Source: Rubrobacter indicoceani (GTDB lineage: Bacteria > Actinomycetota > Rubrobacteria > Rubrobacterales > Rubrobacteraceae). Taken from it: DNA of 64,000 nucleotides. This document shows positions 31,663 to 61,019 of this stretch, piece after piece. The notes beneath the pieces are model-generated. The model had not been told where the DNA came from. It ran no database searches and worked only from the letters and a program-made list of their open reading frames with translations. The stretch is from the NCBI RefSeq assembly GCF_003568865.1, contig NZ_CP031115.1, positions 2,294,001-2,358,000 on the forward strand, read 5' to 3'. A program made the position numbers and the translations under genes. Position 1 is the first letter of the stretch. Every line of letters starts with the position of its first letter.

Positions 31663-31726
31663 ATATTCCGGGTCACGGTCCGGACTGTGTTAGTCTCTTG
31701 CCGTCAGCAGACCAATCGCATACCGA

Positions 31727-31915
31727 CAGCGTCGTGGTACGGGGAATCCGGTTGAAAGCCGGAGCGGTCCTGCCACTTCAAGCGGCGAGGTCGGGTTCGG
31801 AGACCGGGGAGCGAACCTCCCCCGGCCACCGGAGATCCGGTTCTCCGGGAAGGCCGCGAAACACCGACCGAGAGCATCACCCGGAGCCGCAAGCCAGGAG
31901 ACCCGCCTGACGCTG
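31727..31915 (+). promoter_or_regulatory. Cobalamin (B12) riboswitch
   Basis: The outer helix pairs CAGCGTC (31727-31733) with GACGCTG (31909-31915). Inside are GGGAATCCGGTTGAAAGCCGG, GAGCGGTCCTGCCACT, GGGAAGGCCGCGAAAC and the B12 box AGCCAGGAGACCCGCC (31892-31907). This order is diagnostic of the adenosylcobalamin-class riboswitch. It precedes a BtuF-like gene and should repress it when cobalamin is plentiful. Confidence 0.93.
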
Positions 31916-31928
31916 GGGCCCTCTATCG

Positions 31929-31949: not shown

Positions 31950-32966
31950 TTGATCTCCCTTTACAGAACGCCGCTGCTCCTGCGTCCGTCCGGCTCACCG
32001 TTTGTCCGCGCGACGCTGGTTGCCCTGATCCTGTCCCTGACCGGAATTCTCTCGAGCTGCGGCGCCTCCCCGACGTCCACAACCCAGGGAGGGGGCTCCG
32101 CTTCCGGCGCATCGCCGGAGACAGCGGCCGGAACCACCGATGCGGGATACCCCCTGACGCTCACGGACGACGCGGGGCGCGAGGTAACGATAGACGGGGA
32201 GCCGGAGAACATCGCCTCGATGGCCCCGAGCATCACCGAGACGCTGTTCGCGGTCGGGGCCGGAGACCGGGTCGTCGGGGTGACGACCTCCGACGATTAC
32301 CCCGAGGAGGTAACGGACATCGAGACGGTCGGGGATTTCTCGGAGATCAACGTCGAGCAGGTTCTCGCTCTCGACACCGACCTTCTTTTCGTCTCCTTCG
32401 ACACCACCGCCGAGCGGGCCGACGAACTGGAGGAGCAGACGGACGCAGACGTGGTGGTCGTTGACCCCGGTACGCTCGATGAGGTTCTCGAGAGCGTCGA
32501 GCTTGTCGGTCGGGCCGCCGGGGAGCCGCAGAACGGGCGCAGGACGCAGGAAGAGATGCGCTCGGAGCTTGACGCTATAGAGTCGGCCGTGGCCGGGGAA
32601 CCGGAGCCGACGGTTTTCTACGAGGTCTTTGGAGATCCGCTCCAGACGGTCGGGCCGGGCAGCTTCATCGACGACGCCATCGGCGTGGCGGGCGGGGAGA
32701 ACATCGCCGCCGGGACGGGCGAGGCCTACCCGACCTACTCCGCCGAGACCGTTATAGAGCGCGACCCGGATTTCTACCTTGTCGGGAGCTTCTCCGGTAC
32801 GGATGCCGAGACCGTCGCCGAACGCCCCGGCTTCTCTAACCTGAGCGCGGTCGAGGGGGATCGGGTCAAGGTCATAGACGACGACCTTATCAGTCGCCCC
32901 GGCCCCCGCGTCGCGGACGGGGTGCGTCAGATCGCACAGGCCCTGCACCCGAACGCCGACCTCTGA
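31950..32966 (+). CDS. Cobalamin ABC transporter substrate-binding lipoprotein (BtuF-like)
   Basis: 338 residues. A signal peptide (LVALILSLTGIL) ends in the lipobox LSSC at about residue 34, then a Ser/Gly/Thr-rich linker and the periplasmic-binding fold of the BtuF/FhuD type: GREVTIDGEPENIASMAPSITETLFAVGAGDRVVGVT, NVEQVLALDTDLLF, DRVKVIDDDLISRPGPRV. It would bind B12 outside the membrane. The B12 riboswitch directly upstream supports this substrate. TTG start with AAGGAG upstream. The usual BtuC permease and BtuD ATPase genes are not adjacent, so it must use components encoded elsewhere. Confidence 0.9.
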   Translation: MISLYRTPLLLRPSGSPFVRATLVALILSLTGILSSCGASPTSTTQGGGSASGASPETAAGTTDAGYPLTLTDDAGREVTIDGEPENIASMAPSITETLFAVGAGDRVVGVTTSDDYPEEVTDIETVGDFSEINVEQVLALDTDLLFVSFDTTAERADELEEQTDADVVVVDPGTLDEVLESVELVGRAAGEPQNGRRTQEEMRSELDAIESAVAGEPEPTVFYEVFGDPLQTVGPGSFIDDAIGVAGGENIAAGTGEAYPTYSAETVIERDPDFYLVGSFSGTDAETVAERPGFSNLSAVEGDRVKVIDDDLISRPGPRVADGVRQIAQALHPNADL

Positions 32967-37307: not shown

Positions 37308-37436
37308 TCAGAACAAAGCGCAGAGGATATACAGAAGCACGACAAAGAAGATAACGAGCAGGCCGGACATACCGGCAAAGAACAGGTTTCTCGTGTGCCT
37401 CGGGTTGTAGGATCTGCGCTCGGTCAGCCCTCGCAT
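37308..37436 (-). CDS. 42-residue single-helix membrane protein
   Basis: Sequence starts MRGLTERRSYNPRHTRNLFF and ends in a single hydrophobic helix (SGLLVIFFVVLLYILCALF). The basic N-terminus should stay in the cytoplasm. AGAGGA lies about 8 bases upstream of the ATG at 37436. No family is known to me. It lies between the tandem hydrolases (plus) and the S8 protease (minus), beyond a hairpin, so it is probably transcribed on its own. Confidence 0.55.
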   Translation of the reverse strand: MRGLTERRSYNPRHTRNLFFAGMSGLLVIFFVVLLYILCALF

Positions 37437-37543
37437 CTCGGTTCCTCTCTTTTTTCTCCGACCCTTCACAGATATTAGATGCACCGGAGGCGTTGATTAA
37501 ATACACGGGCGGTGAGGGGCTCGGACAGATTGAGCCCGGAGGA

Positions 37544-37607: not shown

Positions 37608-39224
37608 CTAGCGGCGGACTACGCGGAAGCTCCAGCTCCGGCTGGTGGATTTCCCGAGGGCGTCGGTCGCGGTGACACGAACGCCCGTAGCGCCGTAGGG
37701 CAGCCGCGCGGACCTGAAGCTCAGTTGCCCGGTGGAGGGGTTGTAGTTGAAGTTCGTGCGTTCCGCGCCCCGGACAAAGACCCGGATGTTCGATTTCGCA
37801 AGGGTGGAGCCGGGGTCCCTCACCGTTGCGGCTAAGGCGGGGGTGCGGGTCTTGACCCGCGCCCCCGGACCGGGGCTTCCCGGGGTTACCGTCGGAGCGA
37901 GGTTGGACGCCGCGAGGCTGCGGGCGGCGTCGGCGTGTCCCGAGCCGAGGCGGGCGTCGTTCAGGTTGCGGGCCGAGGACGTTATTATCCCTTCGATGCT
38001 CGCGTTTGCCGACCCGTCGTCATCGTCTGGGGCGGCAGGGAGGCTCGGGCGCACCGAGCGGATCAGGGCCGCCTGACCGGCCACGAACGGCGCGGCCATC
38101 GAGGTCCCGGTCCAGGAAGCGTAGCCGTCCGTCGGGAAGGGGCTGTGGATATCCTCGCCGGGTGCGGCGACATCCACCCACTCACCCCCGAAGCTCGTGA
38201 ACTCCGACTTCTGCTCCGCCGCGTCTACGGAGGCGACCGAGATCATGCCATCCTCCGCCGCCGGGTACTGCTCGACGACGGTGTTGTTGTTGCCGGCCGA
38301 GCCCACCACGACAACGCCCTCCCGCGGCACACCTTCGACCGCGGGGACATCGTCGTCCTCCGGCTCCGCGAGCTCTTCGAATACGTCTTCCAGAAGCTCG
38401 GATTCCTCCGAAGAGCCGAGGCTCAGGTTGACCACGTCCGCGCCGCGCCGAACGGTCCCCTGGACGGCCTCCGCGATCAGGAACACATCTCCCCGGCCCT
38501 CGGCATCGAGGACGCGCATCGGCATGATCCTCGCCTCCGGCGCGGTGAGATGTACGATTCCGGCGACGTGCGTGCCGTGCCCGACCAGCGCCCCGCTCGC
38601 CGCTTCGGAGGGGTCTGAGTCATCGTCAACGTAGTCGTATCCGGAGACGAGGCTTCCGGAGAGTTCCGGGTGATCGGTCTGCACGCCGGTGTCCAGCACC
38701 GCGACCGTCGTACCCGCGCCTCTGGAGGTCCGGTGCGCCGCCCCCAGCCTCATCGCCCCGGCGGCGTACTGGTCGGAGTAGTTCGGCTCGGAACTCGCCG
38801 CCGGAGCGTAGTCGCTGCGCGCCCTGTGTCTCGGGTTCCCTTCCGGTGTCTCCACGATGTAGTTCGGCTCGGCGTAGAGAAGGCTCCGGTCGCTCTCCAT
38901 CGTCTCGGTGAGGTCTTCGGTGGAGCCGCTTGCGGGGGCTTGCAGAAGGTATATCTTCCCGCTCGCAAGCACCGCGTCCTTCGTGCTCGTGCCGTAACGC
39001 TGGTTGATCTGGTCTATCGTCGCCCCGGAACGCGGGTCTATCTTGGCGACTATCTCCCCGGTCGCGGCTTCGTCATCCTCGTCGGCCAGCGCGGGGGTAG
39101 AACCCGATGCGAGAACCGGCACGAGCAGGGCGAGAAATACAAAGAACGCCGCTCTTCGGAGTTTGCGGACAGCCTCCCCGTCGCTTTCGTATATGCAGGT
39201 CGCTGCACCGTCCGGGTCTCTCAC
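37608..39224 (-). CDS. S8 family (subtilisin-like) serine protease, secreted
   Basis: About 538 residues from the GTG at 39224, chosen for AAGGAG 6 bases upstream. A signal peptide follows a charged lead (KLRRAAFFVFLALLVPVLASG...ALA). An I9-like propeptide region lies at about 50-140. The peptidase domain holds D178 (AVLDTGVQTDHP), H216 (GHGTHVAGI), the oxyanion N312 (SAGNNN) and S375 (GTSMAAPFVAG). An acidic insertion (ELLEDVFEELAEPEDDD) sits near 276-292. The C-terminal 100 residues form an Ig-like beta domain. It is the last gene of the sigma/TPR-CHAT cluster, downstream of the TPR-CHAT gene on the same strand. Confidence 0.93.
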   Translation of the reverse strand: MRDPDGAATCIYESDGEAVRKLRRAAFFVFLALLVPVLASGSTPALADEDDEAATGEIVAKIDPRSGATIDQINQRYGTSTKDAVLASGKIYLLQAPASGSTEDLTETMESDRSLLYAEPNYIVETPEGNPRHRARSDYAPAASSEPNYSDQYAAGAMRLGAAHRTSRGAGTTVAVLDTGVQTDHPELSGSLVSGYDYVDDDSDPSEAASGALVGHGTHVAGIVHLTAPEARIMPMRVLDAEGRGDVFLIAEAVQGTVRRGADVVNLSLGSSEESELLEDVFEELAEPEDDDVPAVEGVPREGVVVVGSAGNNNTVVEQYPAAEDGMISVASVDAAEQKSEFTSFGGEWVDVAAPGEDIHSPFPTDGYASWTGTSMAAPFVAGQAALIRSVRPSLPAAPDDDDGSANASIEGIITSSARNLNDARLGSGHADAARSLAASNLAPTVTPGSPGPGARVKTRTPALAATVRDPGSTLAKSNIRVFVRGAERTNFNYNPSTGQLSFRSARLPYGATGVRVTATDALGKSTSRSWSFRVVRR

Positions 39225-39280
39225 TCTGCGCTCCTTGCCTCCGGGTTCACCGATTCGGGTTTGTCTCTCTTTTGATCCAT
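39221..39280 (-). CDS. 19-codon leader frame overlapping the S8 protease start
   Basis: A short frame starts ATG at 39280 and reads MDQKRDKPESVNPEARSAE. Its TGA overlaps the GTG start of the protease (GTGA). It contains the protease ribosome-binding site. GGAG lies about 11 bases upstream of its ATG. It could couple or regulate protease translation; it may also be chance. Confidence 0.35.
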   Translation of the reverse strand: MDQKRDKPESVNPEARSAE

Positions 39281-39460
39281 GCGCTCGGGATCTCCGGTTG
39301 ATACACGCATTTTGTCGTTGCCCGCTGGTTTTCGGGCGATCTCCTGCAGGAAAAGGCGTCATCATGCTATTGGCCCTTCCTGAAGCGGAGATTAAAGCGG
39401 GATTAGAAAGCTCTCATAAACGCCCGACGCTCGGAGATGCCTTGCGGCCCCCGGCGCGGG

Positions 39461-42340
39461 CTAACGTCTGCCGACCAGCAAGAAGGCGGCCCAGTGGTAG
39501 GGGTGGGGATGTTGCTTCTTTGTCTCCCGGCACGCACGGTTGAGGGCCGGAGCGGGGCTGCTCCCTTCAAGAAGGTCGGCGTAGAAGCTCTCCATGAACC
39601 CGGCGGTCGTATCGTCCTGAACAAGCCAGAGGCTCACGAGCAGCGTAGACGCCCCGGCCCCGAGAAAGGCGCGGGTCAGGCCGAGCGTCTCGTCGCCGCC
39701 GGCAACCCGGCTCCGCCCGGACTCGCACGCGCTCAGGGTTACCGTCGCGCCCGAAAGGTCGAGGTTCATCGCGTCGGCGGCCAGAAGCCAGCCGTCGTCG
39801 AGCTTCAGGGAGGAGAACATCGGGTTGTCCGAGCGGAACAGACCGTGACAGGCCAGATGCACGACCCCAAACCCGGAGGCCGAATCCAGCGCGCCGAGGG
39901 TCGCCGCATCGCCTGTCAGAACGCTCGATTCGGGGAAGCCCCGGGCGACCGAGCGGGCTTCGAGCCGGGCGGAGGGGATCGTAGGGTCTTCCACCCCGAT
40001 CGCCAGAATATTCTCCGGCGGGCGCGGCTCCCGCTTCTGGCAGAGCGCGAACACCGTAACGCTCGGGGCGTAGGAGAACTCGTAGAGTTCGATCGCGTAC
40101 TCCTCCCCGTCGAAGAGCGCGTGAAACGGCACCTGATGCAACTCTCCGTGCGGGATGATCGCCAGCTTCGGCAGCTCATCTCCAGAATCCGAGGCCCCCG
40201 GGAGCAGCCCTTTCAGCGGTCGCAGAAGCTCGTCGTAGAGCGCGGCGAGTACCCGGCGAGCCGAACGCTCCAGCATCTCCCCGTGTCGCCCGGAGAACTC
40301 CGTCCCGGCCCGGAAGCGATCCCACTGCGCCTCCAGCTTGCGCAGAAGTCCTCTGACCTCTGCAACGGAACCCACGTTGCGGATGACCGTGAGCCGGTCT
40401 CCCGAACGGCAGAAAGCAAAGATTTCATCCCCGACGATATGGTAGGCAAGCACCGTTACGTCCGGCGGGATGTGGTCTTGCGTGTCTTTTGTCGGGACCG
40501 AGAACGGATCCGTACCCGAGCTCACCTCGCGGAGCCTGAGGCGGCCGATCTCCTCCTCCAGCTCCGAGGCTCGCCTGTTGAGGTCCGAAACCGCCCCGAA
40601 CCGCCCCGCCCCGCCCCGAGAACCGCCGAGCATCTCGTTGTAGACGGCGTTCAGGTCGGCGTGAGCGGCGGCGAGCCTGCCGCCCGGTTTCGCCTCCGAC
40701 AGAGAAGACCCGACCTCGACGACGCCCGTCAGGAGGTCAACGAGCGCGCGGGACTTTGCCCGTTCCGAGACCTCGAAGGCGAGCGAGGCCGCGACGCCGT
40801 CGTCCGGACGTCCGAGGTAGAGTTGCAGGAGTTCTTCGTAGGCGGCGGTCTTGTCCTGCAGAAAAGACGCCCGGGCGGCGTCCCGGTCAACAAAGCCTCT
40901 GAGGCGTTCGATCTCATCCATCGCCTCCCGAAGAGCGACCTCGGCCTCGGCCTCGCGCCCCTGCAGCCTTCTCAGGCGACCGAGCCGTTCACGAAGGCGA
41001 TGACCGAGCTGCGGAAGTGAGATCCCCTCCGAGGAAAGCAGCGCCTCATCGAGATGATGCTCGGCCCGTTCAGGGTCGTCCGGCAGGAAAAGGTCCACGA
41101 GCCGCAGGTGCGCGTAGGCCTCCTGCACCGGCAGGCTCTCGCCGACGATAAGGCTCAGGGCGTCCTCGGCCATCTTCCGGGCCGCCGCCGTCTCCCCGAG
41201 CGCCATGAGGAGCGCGGCCTGCTCCAGCATTACCCCGGAGAGCATCGGCGCGTTGCCCGCCGCCGAGAACAGCGCAGCGGCCTCTCGGAGCGACCGCCCC
41301 GCCTCCCCGAACTCGGAGCGGGCGACAAGAGCCGTCCCCATCCCCCACAGAGCCTGCGCCCGGTCGTGCGCCATTCCGGCATCCTTCAGCAGAACCTCCG
41401 CCTCTCGGTAGCTTGCAAGAGCCTCCGTGTACAGGTTGAGTTCGAGGTATGCATCCGCCGTGTGTCGCAGAAACAGATAACCGTCCGAAGGCGAACCGAG
41501 CGACTCCAGCAGGGGGCGCGCTTTCTCGAAGGCTTCAAGGCTGGCTCTGTAGTTGCCCAGACGCAGGTGAGCTTCTCCCACGTTTACAAGGGCTTTGGTG
41601 TACGGCAGGGTAAGCTCGCTCTCGCTGAAAACATCCGCGGCATCCTCGTGTGCCGCCAGTGCTTCGCGGCTGCGGCCAAGAGATGAGAGGATCGCGCCGC
41701 GGTTGTCTGCGATCTCACCGAGCCGTTCGACCATCCCGAGCTCCCTGTAATGCTCCTCGGCGGAAGCGTAGTCGCTGAGTGCCTCATCGTAGTGCCCCAT
41801 GTACTCGTAGCAGCCGCCCCTGTTCTGCTGCACCAGGGCGGTCAGCAGATCAGCCTGTTCCTTTGTCGGCCTTACATCCAGTTCGCCTTTGCCGTCCAGG
41901 GTATCCAGCACGCTCCGGCCGACATCCAGCGCTTTCTGATAACGACCCAACTCCAGCAGTGCGGCCATCTTCCCCACGTTTGTCCTGAGCGCCTCGGCGT
42001 GCATGCCCAACATCACATACCGGTCGTGGGCGGCCTGGGTCAGGCGCAGGTCTTCCTCGAACTCCCCGTTTATGTTGTGTACTCCGGCGAGTACGTAGCT
42101 CGCTTTCGGTACGGCTGCCGGAGCCTTCGCCGTTTCCGCCAGATCAAGGCAGGCTTTGGCCAGCCTGCGGGCCCGGCCGGGGTCGCTGCCGAGCAGATCG
42201 TCCGCCTCGTCGAGGAGCCGGTCCAGCCCTTCGGCGTTCAGAAGTCCTCTGGAGTGCAGGAGTTCTTCCCGCCGATCGCGGGTCGGGAGGCCGAGCACCT
42301 CGTCTGTGAGGCTTGCTTCGGTCTCCGCTTCGTAGGACAT
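39461..42340 (-). CDS. TPR-CHAT protein (caspase-like protease)
   Basis: 959 residues. Residues of about 20-500 form a solenoid of tetratricopeptide-like repeats (for example YQKALDVGRSVLDTL, YDEALSDYASAEEHYRELG, REALAAHEDAADVF, YRASLEAFEKARPLLESLG, EALASYREAEVLLKDAG). A helical linker leads to the CHAT peptidase domain at about 650-959. The catalytic pair is His832 (VVHLACHGLF) and Cys872 (TLSACESG), with WLVQDDTTAGFMESFY and the C-terminal HPYHWAAFLLVG typical of CHAT. It should be a cytoplasmic cysteine protease switched on through the repeats. The ATG lies 6 bases after a TAGAAT box, so it probably has its own leaderless transcript within the sigma/anti-sigma/S8 cluster. Confidence 0.93.
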   Translation of the reverse strand: MSYEAETEASLTDEVLGLPTRDRREELLHSRGLLNAEGLDRLLDEADDLLGSDPGRARRLAKACLDLAETAKAPAAVPKASYVLAGVHNINGEFEEDLRLTQAAHDRYVMLGMHAEALRTNVGKMAALLELGRYQKALDVGRSVLDTLDGKGELDVRPTKEQADLLTALVQQNRGGCYEYMGHYDEALSDYASAEEHYRELGMVERLGEIADNRGAILSSLGRSREALAAHEDAADVFSESELTLPYTKALVNVGEAHLRLGNYRASLEAFEKARPLLESLGSPSDGYLFLRHTADAYLELNLYTEALASYREAEVLLKDAGMAHDRAQALWGMGTALVARSEFGEAGRSLREAAALFSAAGNAPMLSGVMLEQAALLMALGETAAARKMAEDALSLIVGESLPVQEAYAHLRLVDLFLPDDPERAEHHLDEALLSSEGISLPQLGHRLRERLGRLRRLQGREAEAEVALREAMDEIERLRGFVDRDAARASFLQDKTAAYEELLQLYLGRPDDGVAASLAFEVSERAKSRALVDLLTGVVEVGSSLSEAKPGGRLAAAHADLNAVYNEMLGGSRGGAGRFGAVSDLNRRASELEEEIGRLRLREVSSGTDPFSVPTKDTQDHIPPDVTVLAYHIVGDEIFAFCRSGDRLTVIRNVGSVAEVRGLLRKLEAQWDRFRAGTEFSGRHGEMLERSARRVLAALYDELLRPLKGLLPGASDSGDELPKLAIIPHGELHQVPFHALFDGEEYAIELYEFSYAPSVTVFALCQKREPRPPENILAIGVEDPTIPSARLEARSVARGFPESSVLTGDAATLGALDSASGFGVVHLACHGLFRSDNPMFSSLKLDDGWLLAADAMNLDLSGATVTLSACESGRSRVAGGDETLGLTRAFLGAGASTLLVSLWLVQDDTTAGFMESFYADLLEGSSPAPALNRACRETKKQHPHPYHWAAFLLVGRR

Positions 42341-42346
42341 GCGACG

Positions 42347-42359
42347 ATTCTACTAGAAT
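42347..42359 (-). promoter_or_regulatory. Palindromic -10 region of the TPR-CHAT gene
   Basis: ATTCTA-C-TAGAAT is a perfect 13-bp dyad. On the minus strand its TAGAAT half is followed by 6 bases and the ATG, the same geometry as at dnaX and carboxylase beta. The dyad could be a repressor site that covers the -10 box. The opposite half gives TAGAAT on the plus strand as well. Confidence 0.5.
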
Positions 42360-42362
42360 GGA

Positions 42363-42587
42363 ATGTTTCTGATCTTGCTCTGGCCCGCCTCCGACCTCCG
42401 GGCATCACGCCGGGATCGTCGCTTGCAGAAAAACGGGGCGCGAGGCTCTACGCTCCCGGAAAAGAAGAGAAGCGACGAGATCCAACGCGCCGTCACCGGC
42501 CTGGCGGCCCTCCTCCCGCTTCTGCCGGTCGCCGTACTCGTACACCGGGGCCTCGACCCGTTCGCCGCCGAAGAACCCGCGCCGTAA
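42363..42587 (+). CDS. Possible small membrane protein opposite the sigma/TPR-CHAT cluster
   Basis: 74 residues: a hydrophobic start (FLILLWPASDL), a basic middle and a second hydrophobic stretch (AVTGLAALLPLLPVAVLVHRGL), ending AEEPAP. Third-position GC is high in the second half, which favours coding. There is no clear ribosome-binding site and no known family. It occupies most of the 308-base gap between the anti-sigma-like and TPR-CHAT genes but on the opposite strand, so it may also be chance. Confidence 0.33.
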   Translation: MFLILLWPASDLRASRRDRRLQKNGARGSTLPEKKRSDEIQRAVTGLAALLPLLPVAVLVHRGLDPFAAEEPAP

Positions 42588-42648
42588 CAGGGGGCGTCTT
42601 GTGGGCCACGCCTGATCCCGCCTTGAGCGGTTACGAGACACCCCCGAA

Positions 42649-43278
42649 CTAGAGCGTGAAGGTCGGGGTGAGTATCTCGGCCTCCGGGGTCGCGACGACT
42701 ATCCGGTAGACACCCCTGTCGACGTTCTCGAAGGAGAACTCGCCGAGGTCGTCGGCGTTTGTTATGGCGACCTCCGTCTCGTCCTGCCCGACAAGCTGCA
42801 CGGCGAACTCTTCCGGGTCTTCGTCACCGAGCGGCAGGACCTGACCGAGCAGGTCGAACAGGCCGCCGGGACGCGGCTGGATGCTCACTGAGATATCCGC
42901 TGCTTTTGTTCCGTAGCTCAGCTGTCGCTGCGCCTCGCTCGATGGCGTTCCCGCCGACCGGACCCCGAACGAAGCCTGAAAACCGCTGTCGAAGTTGAGC
43001 GCGGCCACGATGCGTTCGATAACGCCGGACTTTTCCTTCCCTTCCACGAAGCGTTCCACAAAGGCAGCTTCAAGGTCGCGGCGGACCCCGACGGGCGGGT
43101 CGTCGAGCGCAAGCCCCTCGCTGACCTTTGCAAAGGACCGGAGCCAGCGGGCTTCGGCGCGGGTTTCGGCGTCGGCCTCTTCTATCCGACGGGCGATGAG
43201 GCGGGCCTCGTCCGGGGGGAGCCTCCCCTCGGCGTAGTCGGCGAGTTTCTCGAAATCCGGTCTACCTGTCTCTGGCAT
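42649..43278 (-). CDS. Anti-sigma-like protein with carboxypeptidase-regulatory-like domain
   Basis: 209 residues from the ATG at 43278. Residues 1-60 (DFEKLADYAEGRLPPDEARLIARRIEEADAETRAEARWLRSF) resemble the helical start of anti-sigma factors, but the zinc-binding H-x3-C-x2-C is absent. A middle segment of about 60-150 is amphipathic. The C-terminal 60 residues look like a small beta-sandwich of the carboxypeptidase-regulatory type (ADDLGEFSFENVDRGVYRIVVATP). No membrane helix, so it is soluble. It lies 86 bases downstream of the ECF sigma gene and upstream of TPR-CHAT. It is a candidate partner of the sigma factor and substrate of the protease; this is inference. Confidence 0.7.
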   Translation of the reverse strand: MPETGRPDFEKLADYAEGRLPPDEARLIARRIEEADAETRAEARWLRSFAKVSEGLALDDPPVGVRRDLEAAFVERFVEGKEKSGVIERIVAALNFDSGFQASFGVRSAGTPSSEAQRQLSYGTKAADISVSIQPRPGGLFDLLGQVLPLGDEDPEEFAVQLVGQDETEVAITNADDLGEFSFENVDRGVYRIVVATPEAEILTPTFTL

Positions 43279-43364
43279 CTCTCTGGGTCTCCGTGTCTGG
43301 CTCTGGTCTCTGAAGCTGTAATGCTCCGGGCAGGCGGGATAAATACCCCCGCGACGGATTGTTT

Positions 43365-43931
43365 TTATGCTTCCATCGCATCCTTCAGCCTCTTGAGGCA
43401 TCTCGCCCGCGTCGGGCCGATGCTGCCTACGGGTATTTCAAGTCGCTCGGAGACCTCGGCGTAGGACGGCTGGGAAACATCGAGGTAGAGGAGGGTCAGC
43501 AGTTCGCGGCAGGGCTGGCTTATCCTCTCAAGGCCCCGAACAAGATAATCCATAACCTCCCAGGCCTCGAAACCGTTCTCCCGCTCCCCGATAAGGTCGG
43601 CGGCGTGTTCGGCGACGTCCCGGTCTCTGCGGGTTGCTTCCCGGTTCTTTCTCCCCATTGCCCGCCAGGTGTGCCTGCGGGCGACGGTTGCAAGCCAGGC
43701 CCCGAGCCTGCTGTCCTCCCGGAGCGTCTCCAGGCTGTTCATCAAGATGGTAAAGGTCAACTGCGAAACGTCCGCCGCGTCCTCCCGCGAAAGCCCGTAG
43801 CCCAGCGGGATCGAGAAAACCAGCCGCTCGTAGCGGTCGAGCAGCATCCGCCACGACCGGGGCTCCCCCCTCCGGCAGCCGAGCAACAGTTCACGGTCAG
43901 AGACGCTCTCCCTACTCATTGAAGAAATCAT
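43365..43931 (-). CDS. ECF-type RNA polymerase sigma factor
   Basis: 188 residues (or 184 from the ATG at 43919). Region 2 is LLLGCRRGEPRSWRMLLDRYERLVFSI with the -10-reading helix ADVSQLTFTILMNSLETLR. Region 4 holds the helix-turn-helix SQPSYAEVSERLEIPVGSIGPTRARCLKRLK. IGPTRARC is typical of an actinobacterial ECF group. It starts a minus-strand cluster with the anti-sigma-like, TPR-CHAT and S8 protease genes. TATGAT lies 7 bases upstream of the second ATG, so leaderless expression from 43919 is possible. Its target promoters are not obvious. Confidence 0.93.
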   Translation of the reverse strand: MISSMSRESVSDRELLLGCRRGEPRSWRMLLDRYERLVFSIPLGYGLSREDAADVSQLTFTILMNSLETLREDSRLGAWLATVARRHTWRAMGRKNREATRRDRDVAEHAADLIGERENGFEAWEVMDYLVRGLERISQPCRELLTLLYLDVSQPSYAEVSERLEIPVGSIGPTRARCLKRLKDAMEA

Positions 43932-56056: not shown

Positions 56057-56102
56057 TTACACGGCTCCGTGTAACAGAAGTGCCGGGTTGGGGCCATATA
56101 AT
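56057..56102 (+). promoter_or_regulatory. 18-bp palindrome and -10 box upstream of glutamate dehydrogenase
   Basis: TTACACGGCTCCGTGTAA (56057-56074) is a perfect palindrome with a 2-base centre, nested inside a CTTCTG/CAGAAG pair. A TATAAT follows at 56097-56102 and the -35 region abuts the palindrome, whose TTACAC/GTGTAA ends are of the kind bound by TetR-family dimers. It lies 46-91 bases before the start codon. Confidence 0.65.
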
Positions 56103-56147
56103 GTTCTCAGGGTACGGGACGGTTCAAAGCCTGCGGGAGGTACGGGG

Positions 56148-59100
56148 ATGTTGGCGAAGGACGATGTTCTTGAGTTGGTCGTCGGGAGGATAGGGTCGCA
56201 GTTTTCGGGCGGGGCGGCCCGCGAGGTGGAGGCTTTCGTCCGGCGGTACTACGCCTGGGTTCCGGAGGAAGACCTCTCGGACCGCTCGCCGGTGGACGTA
56301 TACGGGGCTGCCGTCTCTCACTACAACTTCCTCAAGCACCGCAGGCCGGGAGAGGCGAAGGTGCGCGTCTACAATCCCGACCACGAGCAGGACGGCTGGC
56401 GTTCGACCCACACCGTCGTCGAGATCGCAACGGACGACATGCCCTTTCTCGTTGACTCCCTGAGCATGGAGCTCAACCGCCTCGGACACGGCATACACCT
56501 GCTGTTTCACCCGATCATCGCCGTCCGGCGTGACGCCGGGGGGAACCTGACGGGCCTCCCTGATTCCGGCGCTTCGGACCCGGAGTCCATCTACGAATCC
56601 ATCATCCACATCGAGGTCGAGCGCCGCACCGAGCCGGAGGTTCTGGACGGGCTCGGAAGGGGCCTTGAGCGGGTTCTCTCAGAAGTCCGGGCCGCCGTCG
56701 AGGACTTCGGGGCGATGAAGGACCGCGTCTCGGAGATAGCCGCTGAACTCCGGGAAGCCCCGTCCGGGGCCCCGGACCCCGCCGGGGCCCGGGAGACGGC
56801 CGACTTCCTTGACTGGCTTGCGGAGGACCACTTCACCTTCACCGGCTACCGCGAGTACGAACTCCTCGAGGACCCTGAGAGCGGCGAGGACGCGCTCTAC
56901 GACGTGCCGGACTCCGGCCTCGGCATCCTGCGCCGGAGCGGCTCGGAGCCGGTCGCCTCCGGCAGCTTCGCTCGTCTCTCCCCGCCCGCCCGCAGGCTCG
57001 CCCGCAGCCCGAACCTCCTGAACCTGACAAAGACAAACGCCGAGTCGCGGGTCCACCGCCCGGCCCACCTCGACTACATCGGGATAAAGAAGATTGACCC
57101 GGCGGGGAACATCGTCGGGGAGCGGCGGTTTCTCGGGATGTACACCTCGTCGGCTTACTCGGCGGACCCGAGAGAGATACCGCTGGTTCGCGGAAAGGTC
57201 GCGAACATCCTTGAAGGCGCGTCTTTTCCGGCGCACAGCCACTACGAGAAGTCGCTTGTCGAGGTCTTCGAGACGTACCCTCGCGACCAGCTTCTTCAGA
57301 CGCCCCTGGAAGAACTGCGCCGCATCGCCCTCGGAATGCTCCGGCTTCAGGAACGCCACCGGGTCAAAACCTTTATCCGCCGCGACACGTTCGGACGCTT
57401 TCTCTCGTGCTTTGTCTTTGTGCCGCGCGACCGCTACGATACCGGCGCGCGAGTGCGCATACGGGAGCTGCTCGAAGCGCGGTTCTCCGCAAAGAGCGTG
57501 GACTTCTCCGTTCGTCTCTCCGAGTCCGTGCTGGCGCGGCTCCTCTTTATAATCTACGCCGACCAGGAGAGTACAGGGGACTACAACCTGAGCGAGATAG
57601 AGACCGCCATCGTCCGGGCCACCCGCACCTGGACGGATGACCTCTACGATTCGCTTGTCGAGGGCTTCGGCGAGGAGCGCGGCACGACCCTTTTTCACCG
57701 CTACCGCAACGCCTTTCCGGCGGGTTACCGGGAGGAGTTCCTTGCCCGGCGCGCCTACCCGGACATAGACCACATGGAGCTGCTCGAAAAAGACGGCGAC
57801 CTCGGCATGAGCCTCTACCGCAGGCTGGAGGAACCGGACAACCACCTGCGCTTCAAGCTTTTCCGCAAGGGGAGGATAGTCTCGCTCTCGGAGGTCCTGC
57901 CGCTGCTCGAGAACATGGGCGTCGAGGTGGTGGATGAGATAGGCCCGTTCGAGGTCCGTCCGGTCTGCAGACCCGATTCCGAAGAGAGGTTCTGGGTTCA
58001 CGACTTCGGCCTGCGCGCCGAGCGCTCGCTGGACACCGGGGAGGTGCGCGGCATCTTCCAGGAGGCTTTCCGGCGCGTCTGGGACTCCGAGGTCGAGGAC
58101 GACGGCTTCAACCGGCTCGTCCTGAGGGCCGGGCTCGACTCCCGGGAGATAACCGTTCTGCGTTCGGTCTGCAAGTACCTCCGTCAGACGGATCTGACAT
58201 TTTCCCAGTTCTACATGGAATCCACCCTCGTCCGGAACCCGCACCTCACCCGCCTGCTCGTCCGGCTCTTCAAGGCCCGCTTCGACCCGCGCCGCCAGGG
58301 CCAGGACAACGCTCGCGCCGGGGCCGCCGCAGAGAGCCTCATCGCCCAGATAAACACCGCCCTCGACGGCGTAGCGAGCCTCGACGAAGACCGCATCGTT
58401 CGCTCCTTTCTGAACGTTATCCTCGCCATGCGCCGGACGAACTTCTACCGCACCGATGCCGGAGGCAGCCCGCTCCCCTACCTCTCCTTCAAGCTGGAGC
58501 CGGGTGAGATCCCGGAACTCCCCCGGCCCCGCCCGAAGTTCGAGGTCTTTGTCTACTCCCCGCGCATGGAGGGCGTCCACCTGCGCGGCGGCGACGTCGC
58601 CCGGGGCGGCATCCGGTGGTCCGACCGCCGCGAAGACTTCCGGACCGAAGTCCTCGGTCTCATGAAAGCCCAGATGGTGAAGAACGCCGTGATCATCCCC
58701 GTCGGGGCGAAGGGCGGCTTTATCGTTAAGAAACCCCCCGTAAACGCCGACCGGGAGACGATGCAGCGCGAAGTCATACATTGTTACGAGACACTGATAC
58801 GAGGCATGCTCGACCTGACGGACAACCTCGACGCTTCGGGTGAGACGGTCCCGCCCGCCGGGGTCGTGCGCCTCGACGGAGACGACCCGTACCTCGTGGT
58901 GGCGGCGGACAAGGGGACGGCGACGTTCTCGGACCTCGCGAACGGCATCTCAGAGGAGTACGGGTTCTGGCTCGGGGACGCCTTTGCCTCGGGGGGTTCG
59001 GTCGGCTACGACCACAAGGCGATGGGCATCACCGCGAAGGGCGCGTGGGAGTCCGTAAAGCGGCACTTCCGAGAGCTCGGCCGCGACGTGCAGCAAGAGT

Positions 59101-61019
59101 ACTTCACCGTTGTCGGGATCGGGGATATGTCCGGTGACGTGTTCGGCAACGGGATGCTTCTCAGCCGCCACACGAAGCTTGTCGGGGCGTTTAACGGAGT
59201 GCACATCTTTCTTGACCCGGACCCCGACCCGGAGGCGAGCTACGCCGAGCGGGAGCGGCTCTTCCGGCGGCCGCGCTCGACGTGGACCGATTACGACGAG
59301 TCGCTTATCTCCGAAGGCGGCGGCGTGTTTTCAAGGGCGTCGAAGTCCGTGCCGCTCTCGCCCGAGGTAAGGGAACTGCTCGGCGTCGAGGACAGACATC
59401 TCACGCCGACGGAGCTTATAAGCGCGATGCTCAGGGCCGAGGTGGACCTGCTCTGGAACGGCGGCATCGGGACGTACGTAAAGTCCTCTGGCGAGGCCGA
59501 CTCCTCGGTCGGGGACCGGACAAACGACGCGCTCCGGGTGGACGGGCGCGACCTGCGCTGCAAGGCTGTCGGGGAGGGCGGGAACCTCGGGATGACGCAG
59601 CTCGGGCGCATCGAGTACGCGCTTGCAAGAGGCGGGCGGGTCTACATGGACGCGGTGGACAACTCCGCCGGGGTGGACTGCTCCGACCACGAGGTAAACA
59701 TCAAGGTGCTGCTCGACTCCGTCGTCGCGAACGGCGACATGACGGACAAGCAGCGCGGCGAGCTGCTCGCCCGCATGACGGAGGAAGTCGAGCGGCACGT
59801 TCTGCGCGACAACTACCTGCAGACGCAGGCTATCTCCACCGAGGCGACCCAGGCCCCTCAGATGGCCGAGCTGCACGGCCGGTACATCGCGCACCTTGAG
59901 GCCTCGGGGAGCCTGGACCGCGGCCTCGAGTTCCTGCCCTCGGCAGAGGAGGTGTCGGACAGGAAAGCCGAGGGCGGCGGCCTCACGACGCCGGAACTCT
60001 CCGTCGTTCTCCTGTACACGAAGCTCACGCTGTACGGGAAGCTCCTCGGCTCGGACGCCGTGGACGACGAGTACCTGGCGGACGAGCTCGTGCGCTACTT
60101 CCCGGACGTGCTCGGCGAGCGTTTCCGGGACGAGATGAAAAGCCACCGCCTGCGCCGGGAGATAGTCGCGACAAGCGTCGTCAACAGCCTCGTCAACCGC
60201 TGCGGCACCACGTTCGCTTTCAGGATGGGGGAAGAGACGGGGGCGGAGTTCCCGGACGTGGCCCGGGCCTACACCGCGACGCGGGAGGTCTTCGGGCTCC
60301 GGGAACTGTGGGCCGGAATAGAGGCCCTCGACAACAAAGTCCCGGTCCGGACGCAGGCCGGGATGTACCTCGCCTGCACAAAGGTCACCGAGCGGGCGGC
60401 GAGGTGGTTTGTCAGGAACCGCCGGCCGCCGCTCGACATCCGGGCCAGCGTCGAGCGGTTCTCCGGGGCCATGCAGACGTTGCGCGAGGAGCTACCGAAC
60501 CTCATGCTCAAAGGCGACGAAGAGGCGCTTCAGGGGAAGATCCGCTCGTTGACGGACAGGGGCGTACCGGAGGGCCTTGCCCGGCGCATCTCGCTCCTCG
60601 ACTCGCTCTACTCCGTTCTCGACATCGTGGACCTCGCCGAAAAGACCGGCGAAGACACCGGGACCGTCGCCTGCATCTACTTGGCTCTCGGCGACCGGAT
60701 GAACCTTCGCTGGCTCCGGGAGCACATAGAGAAACTCCCCCGTGACAACCGCTGGCGCACCCTTGCGAGGGCCGCGCTAAGAGACGACCTCTACAGTCTG
60801 CAGGCCACCCTGACCGAGGAGATCATCTCCGCAGTCCCTCACGGTCCGGCCCCGCAGGAACGCATCGAAGCCTGGGCCGAATCAAACCGCCGCGCCGTGG
60901 ACCGGGCCATTCAGGTTGTCCGGGACGTAAACCAGAACGGCGTCTACGACCTCTCCACCCTGCCCGTGATCCTGCGCGAGATCCGGAACCTCACGGGCTC
61001 GGCGACCGCGAATATCTAG
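56148..61019 (+). CDS. NAD-dependent glutamate dehydrogenase, large (about 180 kDa) type
   Basis: 1,623 residues from the ATG at 56148 (GGGAGGT upstream). The N-terminal ACT-like region includes DMPFLVDSLSMELNRLGHGIHLLFHPI. The catalytic half begins near FYRTDAGGSPLPYLSFKL and holds GGIRWSDRREDFRTEVLGLMKAQMVKNAVIIPVGAKGGFIVK (catalytic Lys) and VVGIGDMSGDVFGNGMLLS (NAD domain), then ALYARGGRVYMD-like LARGGRVYMDAVDNSAGVDCSDHEVN. A long helical C-terminus ends the protein. It oxidatively deaminates glutamate to 2-oxoglutarate, a catabolic role that suits the amino-acid degradation genes around it. Its stop overlaps the thiolase stop by 4 bases on the opposite strand. Confidence 0.97.
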   Translation: MLAKDDVLELVVGRIGSQFSGGAAREVEAFVRRYYAWVPEEDLSDRSPVDVYGAAVSHYNFLKHRRPGEAKVRVYNPDHEQDGWRSTHTVVEIATDDMPFLVDSLSMELNRLGHGIHLLFHPIIAVRRDAGGNLTGLPDSGASDPESIYESIIHIEVERRTEPEVLDGLGRGLERVLSEVRAAVEDFGAMKDRVSEIAAELREAPSGAPDPAGARETADFLDWLAEDHFTFTGYREYELLEDPESGEDALYDVPDSGLGILRRSGSEPVASGSFARLSPPARRLARSPNLLNLTKTNAESRVHRPAHLDYIGIKKIDPAGNIVGERRFLGMYTSSAYSADPREIPLVRGKVANILEGASFPAHSHYEKSLVEVFETYPRDQLLQTPLEELRRIALGMLRLQERHRVKTFIRRDTFGRFLSCFVFVPRDRYDTGARVRIRELLEARFSAKSVDFSVRLSESVLARLLFIIYADQESTGDYNLSEIETAIVRATRTWTDDLYDSLVEGFGEERGTTLFHRYRNAFPAGYREEFLARRAYPDIDHMELLEKDGDLGMSLYRRLEEPDNHLRFKLFRKGRIVSLSEVLPLLENMGVEVVDEIGPFEVRPVCRPDSEERFWVHDFGLRAERSLDTGEVRGIFQEAFRRVWDSEVEDDGFNRLVLRAGLDSREITVLRSVCKYLRQTDLTFSQFYMESTLVRNPHLTRLLVRLFKARFDPRRQGQDNARAGAAAESLIAQINTALDGVASLDEDRIVRSFLNVILAMRRTNFYRTDAGGSPLPYLSFKLEPGEIPELPRPRPKFEVFVYSPRMEGVHLRGGDVARGGIRWSDRREDFRTEVLGLMKAQMVKNAVIIPVGAKGGFIVKKPPVNADRETMQREVIHCYETLIRGMLDLTDNLDASGETVPPAGVVRLDGDDPYLVVAADKGTATFSDLANGISEEYGFWLGDAFASGGSVGYDHKAMGITAKGAWESVKRHFRELGRDVQQEYFTVVGIGDMSGDVFGNGMLLSRHTKLVGAFNGVHIFLDPDPDPEASYAERERLFRRPRSTWTDYDESLISEGGGVFSRASKSVPLSPEVRELLGVEDRHLTPTELISAMLRAEVDLLWNGGIGTYVKSSGEADSSVGDRTNDALRVDGRDLRCKAVGEGGNLGMTQLGRIEYALARGGRVYMDAVDNSAGVDCSDHEVNIKVLLDSVVANGDMTDKQRGELLARMTEEVERHVLRDNYLQTQAISTEATQAPQMAELHGRYIAHLEASGSLDRGLEFLPSAEEVSDRKAEGGGLTTPELSVVLLYTKLTLYGKLLGSDAVDDEYLADELVRYFPDVLGERFRDEMKSHRLRREIVATSVVNSLVNRCGTTFAFRMGEETGAEFPDVARAYTATREVFGLRELWAGIEALDNKVPVRTQAGMYLACTKVTERAARWFVRNRRPPLDIRASVERFSGAMQTLREELPNLMLKGDEEALQGKIRSLTDRGVPEGLARRISLLDSLYSVLDIVDLAEKTGEDTGTVACIYLALGDRMNLRWLREHIEKLPRDNRWRTLARAALRDDLYSLQATLTEEIISAVPHGPAPQERIEAWAESNRRAVDRAIQVVRDVNQNGVYDLSTLPVILREIRNLTGSATANI

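Follow-up and report, generated by a model that had tools for sequence, protein, structure and literature searches.

A conserved CRISPR-free module of an ECF sigma factor, a probable zinc-less anti-sigma protein, a TPR-CHAT protease and a subtilase in Rubrobacter indicoceani and other soil bacteria

The locus described here raises the question of whether caspase-like proteases control sigma factors outside the CRISPR systems. To our knowledge, Csx29 is the sole CHAT protease known to act on a sigma inhibitor. In the output arm of the type III-E Craspase (CASP) systems it cuts Csx30, an inhibitor of an ECF sigma factor (PMC10028731). In Rubrobacter indicoceani, a TPR-CHAT protease is encoded next to an ECF sigma factor, a small protein resembling anti-sigma factors and an S8 subtilase. 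We analysed this locus within a window of 64,000 nucleotides (contig NZ_CP031115.1, positions 2,294,001 to 2,358,000), to which all coordinates below refer unless a locus is named.

Gene content and conservation of the module

The four genes lie on the minus strand in the order sigma, ASL (the name used here for the 209-aa anti-sigma-like protein), TPR-CHAT and S8, and all those named in the preliminary description are present as open reading frames. They encode an ECF sigma factor of 188 aa (43365..43931; Pfam Sigma70_r2, 1e-8; NCBIfam sigma70-ECF, 7e-19), ASL (42649..43278, start at 43278), a TPR-CHAT caspase-like cysteine protease of 959 aa (39461..42340; Pfam CHAT, 7e-61, and TPR_12) and a secreted S8 subtilase with a propeptide (37608..39170, the longest ORF extending to 39365; Peptidase_S8, 7e-44; Fervidolysin_NPro-like). 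The gap between ASL and CHAT (42341-42648, 308 nt) is far longer than that in the same-genus locus L032, and a hydrophobic plus-strand ORF within it (42423-42584) has no counterpart in the other loci.

A family search combined with tblastn revealed about twenty Rubrobacteraceae loci with the same gene set, in which S8 is found either downstream of CHAT or before sigma. Three Chloroflexota metagenome-assembled genomes carry sigma, ASL and CHAT in unchanged order, followed by S8 in two of them; in the third, the contig stops inside CHAT. Wider searches and neighbourhood scans showed that the set is present, in shuffled gene orders, in Rubrobacteraceae, Chloroflexota and many other Actinomycetota and is recurrent in many soil bacteria. 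Among the 63 ASL loci, a sigma gene lies no more than 300 nt from ASL in 57, CHAT lies within 6 kb in 48 and S8 within 6 kb in 45, all of these counts being lower bounds, with several contigs ending early. The four families stand together in 43 of the 63, likewise a lower bound, as the preliminary description would lead one to expect of other actinobacteria and Chloroflexota. The four proteins show correlated pairwise distances (r 0.87-0.94; sigma-ASL 0.94, sigma-CHAT 0.92), which indicates co-inheritance, not contact. Together, the loci with all four genes and the co-varying distances rule out chance neighbours. At L098, L100 and L101, a sigma gene accompanies a short ASL and no CHAT gene was detected in the nearby DNA; ASL may act alone in these lineages, or CHAT may be encoded elsewhere.

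The suggestion that the genes occur without gRAMP or a CRISPR array also held: the genome has no RAMP-family (gRAMP-type) gene, and no direct repeats of CRISPR type lie within roughly 10 kb of the module. These data support the view that sigma, ASL, CHAT and S8 form one conserved CRISPR-free module.

The gene neighbourhood itself is already known from the ECF54 group, whose context comprises carboxypeptidase, subtilase and CHAT proteins and for which proteolytic control without an anti-sigma factor has been proposed from that context (PMC8999054, section 3.3, citing Huang 2015 and Casas-Pastor 2021). The module matches ECF54 by gene context, with genes for a carboxypeptidase(-regulatory-like) protein, a subtilase and a CHAT protein near an ECF sigma gene. 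Whereas the review reports no anti-sigma factor, the partner protein here has an anti-sigma domain of class I. To the known context we add this domain, a conserved promoter-like element, and further copies of the element near the modules that outline a candidate regulon.

The anti-sigma-like protein and the two proteases

That the 209-residue protein is anti-sigma-like and lacks zinc ligands was at first a guess; it is now backed by profile-profile comparison. The N-terminal ~80 residues of ASL matched the zinc anti-sigma domains of Rubrobacter with an HHalign probability of 89.6 (E 1.9e-6, 64 columns), the controls giving probabilities of 0.1-0.7. The best PDB match of this N-terminal part, RskA, is weak alone (E 0.5) and covers the PP-x3-R start of helix 4. 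The zinc ligands H-x3-C-x2-C are absent, and no transmembrane stretch is predicted in ASL. In the AF2 model, short helices come first and a beta domain after, with the helix layout of class I; a three-helix bundle, helix 4 and sequence kinship to known domains are all present. The protein consists of a zinc-less class I anti-sigma domain at about residues 9-75, a linker and a carboxypeptidase-regulatory-like beta domain. The latter gave weak matches to SdrD_B/CarboxypepD_reg and a match to NOMO2 (1.9e-12), in agreement with the 'carboxypeptidase' of the ECF54 context. ASL resembles the zinc-less class I factors RskA and RseA in its helical domain and in the PP-x3-R motif that opens helix 4, and soluble and zinc-less members of class I exist (PMC7406223), but it carries the beta domain where these have a membrane anchor. 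The ASL profile also matched a canonical zinc anti-sigma protein (RskA-like) that is encoded beside a sigma gene at L103:6842-7567.

In class I anti-sigma factors, helix 1 binds sigma-4 and helix 4 binds sigma-2 (PMC7406223). Other actinobacteria have a shorter class of ASL without most of the bundle, in which helix 4, the beta domain and the FDS...GVR...RQL segment are retained. Many actinobacterial ASLs are of this kind, so that only helix 4 or the beta domain can serve for sigma binding there. Neighbouring protein pairs were also modelled as one chain, with the stop codon read as a residue. Neither the sigma-ASL model (pTM 0.52) nor the ASL-CHAT model (pTM 0.58) had a confident interface, and both speak neither for nor against docking. 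A Foldseek match of the sigma-ASL model to 3hug_K/E was excluded as evidence of an anti-sigma fold, as the matched chain may be the sigma-4 chain of that entry. Homology and adjacency thus suggest that ASL inhibits the sigma factor.

The 959-aa protein has both the CHAT domain and the catalytic His and Cys of the CHAT family, and the proposed His832/Cys872 dyad is conserved in the homologues that have aligned letters at these sites, as seen also in a separate motif check. In a Foldseek search, the ASL-CHAT model matched separase, 8eey_B (Csx29) and other Craspase TPR-CHAT chains, with TM-scores of about 0.2-0.5 that reflect general architecture only. The module resembles the Craspase output arm (Csx29, Csx30, CASP-sigma; PMC10028731) in bringing together a TPR-CHAT protease of similar fold, a putative sigma inhibitor and an ECF sigma factor, but differs from it in the absence of a RAMP gene (gRAMP/Cas7-11) from the genome and of CRISPR repeats near the module. 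The CHAT protein resembles Csx29 only in the CHAT domain, with 54.6 bits against the NCBIfam Csx29 model (cut-off 300). There was no Csx30 chain among the PDB matches of the ASL profile, so no sequence relation between ASL and Csx30 is detectable in the solved structures searched. The module would work like the Craspase output arm, yet is not a member of it. Likeness to Csx29-Csx30 (PMC10028731) suggests that CHAT could cleave ASL.

The subtilase has the Asp/His/Ser triad of its family, D225/H263/S422 in the numbering of the longest ORF; these are the residues D178/H216/S375 of the secreted subtilisin in the preliminary description, shifted by 47. Its likely start is at 39170 and the predicted signal peptide ends in ...PALA (hydropathy peak at residue 72). 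CHAT has no secretion signal.

A shared promoter-like element

The sigma-ASL intergenic region contains a predicted sigma-dependent ASL promoter, GTATTT-N16-GCAT (43321..43346, minus strand). A bipartite ECF-like element, TGTATTT-N15/16-GCAT or a near variant, is found in all 21 sigma-ASL gaps compared, those of the window, the Rubrobacteraceae loci and the three Chloroflexota. Its two blocks, TGTATTT (or a close variant) and GCAT or ACAT, are separated by a spacer of near-fixed length (16-17 nt as measured between the fixed blocks across the 21 gaps). By its form and position, the element is a promoter. Exact GTATTT-N15/16-GCAT sites number four in the 3.08-Mb genome, two of them at the module locus. 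A third (L181, G000:C1:135649-135675) stands about 140 nt upstream of the start of a 391-aa ORF and may be due to chance.

When the matrix built from the element was run over the 333 kb of family loci plus the window, 33 sites scored at least 20, against a mean of 0.1 in 20 Markov-1 randomisations. Eighteen of these are training sites, and the other 15 stand upstream of S8, of small ORFs or of further genes close to the modules. The second predicted promoter in the window, TGTATTT-N16-GCAT (37479..37505, minus strand), lies outside the training set and scored 23.6, the next-best score elsewhere in the window being 13.6. In 629 kb of other actinobacterial loci, no site reached a matrix score of 18, and no enriched words were found in 13 divergent CHAT-S8 gaps of distant actinobacteria. 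Inspection by eye showed no common element upstream of sigma itself in Rubrobacteraceae and Chloroflexota, and a search for Sigma70-type promoters gave nothing notable. The module sigma factor probably reads the element, and very probably drives the ASL-CHAT operon. With an anti-sigma domain in ASL and the sigma factor very probably driving ASL-CHAT, the logic of 'protease + sigma inhibitor + sigma' stands.

The element stands directly upstream of S8 in four loci (L044, L046, L050 and L092). Given this placement and the secretion signal, which CHAT lacks, S8 is more likely an output of the module than a target.

The second promoter and a ribosome-binding site precede an unannotated gene for a 42-aa peptide with one predicted transmembrane helix (37308..37436, minus strand; MRGLTERRSYNPRHTRNLFFAGMSGLLVIFFVVLLYILCALF). 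Its orthologue in a same-genus genome (L032:13002-13130; 59% identity, E 4e-9) is preceded by an equivalent, weaker element (score 16.6). Mismatches between the two ORFs by codon position are 14/12/20, and the codon changes comprise 10 synonymous and 19 non-synonymous ones. Alone, these substitutions are weak coding evidence; it is strengthened by the start, ribosome-binding site and promoter that both ORFs have in common. A different family of small ORFs (56-58 aa, 52% identical to each other) is found behind the same element after S8 at L033:14908-15075 and L035:11036-10863.

Proposed regulation and its alternatives

These features can be combined into an autoregulated, CRISPR-free ECF sigma module in which CHAT cleaves ASL, a full cascade to which we assign a probability of about one half. 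The soluble zinc-less ASL would keep the sigma factor inactive, with its first helices against sigma-4 and helix 4 (PPxxxR...) against sigma-2. In the CHAT protein, the TPR array would sense an internal or envelope-derived cue and activate the His832/Cys872 protease. The protease would cut ASL, probably within the linker that precedes the beta domain, and so free the sigma factor. The latter would then transcribe ASL-CHAT, with ASL providing negative feedback and CHAT acting as an amplifier, as well as the secreted subtilase and the small membrane peptides from the TGTATTT-N15/16-GCAT promoters. Against this cascade stand the models, which gave no confident interface, the lack of an identified cleavage site, the absence of CHAT near some sigma-ASL pairs, and the distant actinobacterial loci, from which the promoter element is absent and where many ASLs are without most of the bundle.

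Some of the same observations would fit a scheme in which CHAT and S8 are outputs only: ASL would sense the cue through its beta domain and release the sigma factor, which would in turn induce both proteases as effectors in envelope remodelling, predation or cell death. CHAT does follow ASL behind the predicted sigma promoter, S8 has its own copy of the element in several loci, and some ASL-sigma pairs are without a nearby CHAT. However, CHAT is near ASL in 48 of the 63 loci, the distances of CHAT follow those of sigma and ASL more closely than the S8 distances do, as expected of a regulator, and the Csx29-Csx30 precedent has the same three roles; we consider this scheme less likely than the cascade, albeit the most serious of the alternatives. 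Degradation of the sigma factor itself by CHAT or S8, with no anti-sigma factor involved, has been put forward for ECF54 on the basis of its gene context (PMC8999054, section 3.3). It appears improbable for a module in which a protein with a detectable class I anti-sigma domain adjoins sigma in 57 of the 63 loci, and S8, which carries a secretion signal, is unlikely to meet the sigma factor.

The phage cue of the preliminary description gained no support. A CRISPR-free defence analogue of Craspase, its TPRs sensing a phage product, would account for the matching roles of TPR-CHAT, inhibitor and ECF sigma (PMC10028731). However, the window neighbours are housekeeping metabolic genes (2-oxoacid dehydrogenase, pantothenate, methylmalonyl-CoA mutase and acyl-CoA dehydrogenase genes), PADLOC found nothing in the window except generic methyltransferase and helicase domains, and the module genes occur widely and are inherited together in the manner of a regulatory system, which makes defence the least probable reading. 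Elsewhere in the window, a cobalamin riboswitch (Rfam RF00174, 58.1 bits; 31689-31924, plus strand) lies just upstream of the ORF at 31950-32966, and a 1643-aa ORF (56088-61019, plus strand) is without a PADLOC match.

Cleavage of ASL by CHAT is the preferred reading. The probable anti-sigma factor, the promoter sequence and the candidate regulon, which includes small membrane peptides, allow a reporter assay to decide on what was so far only a context-based proposal for the control of ECF54-type sigma factors. The module also bears on the existence of caspase-like sigma control outside CRISPR. Somewhat more tentatively than the cascade itself, we suggest that it may represent a widespread CRISPR-independent form of stress signalling in which a soluble TPR-CHAT protease would cleave a zinc-less cytosolic anti-sigma factor and so switch on an ECF sigma factor, in parallel to Craspase but with a different inhibitor protein.
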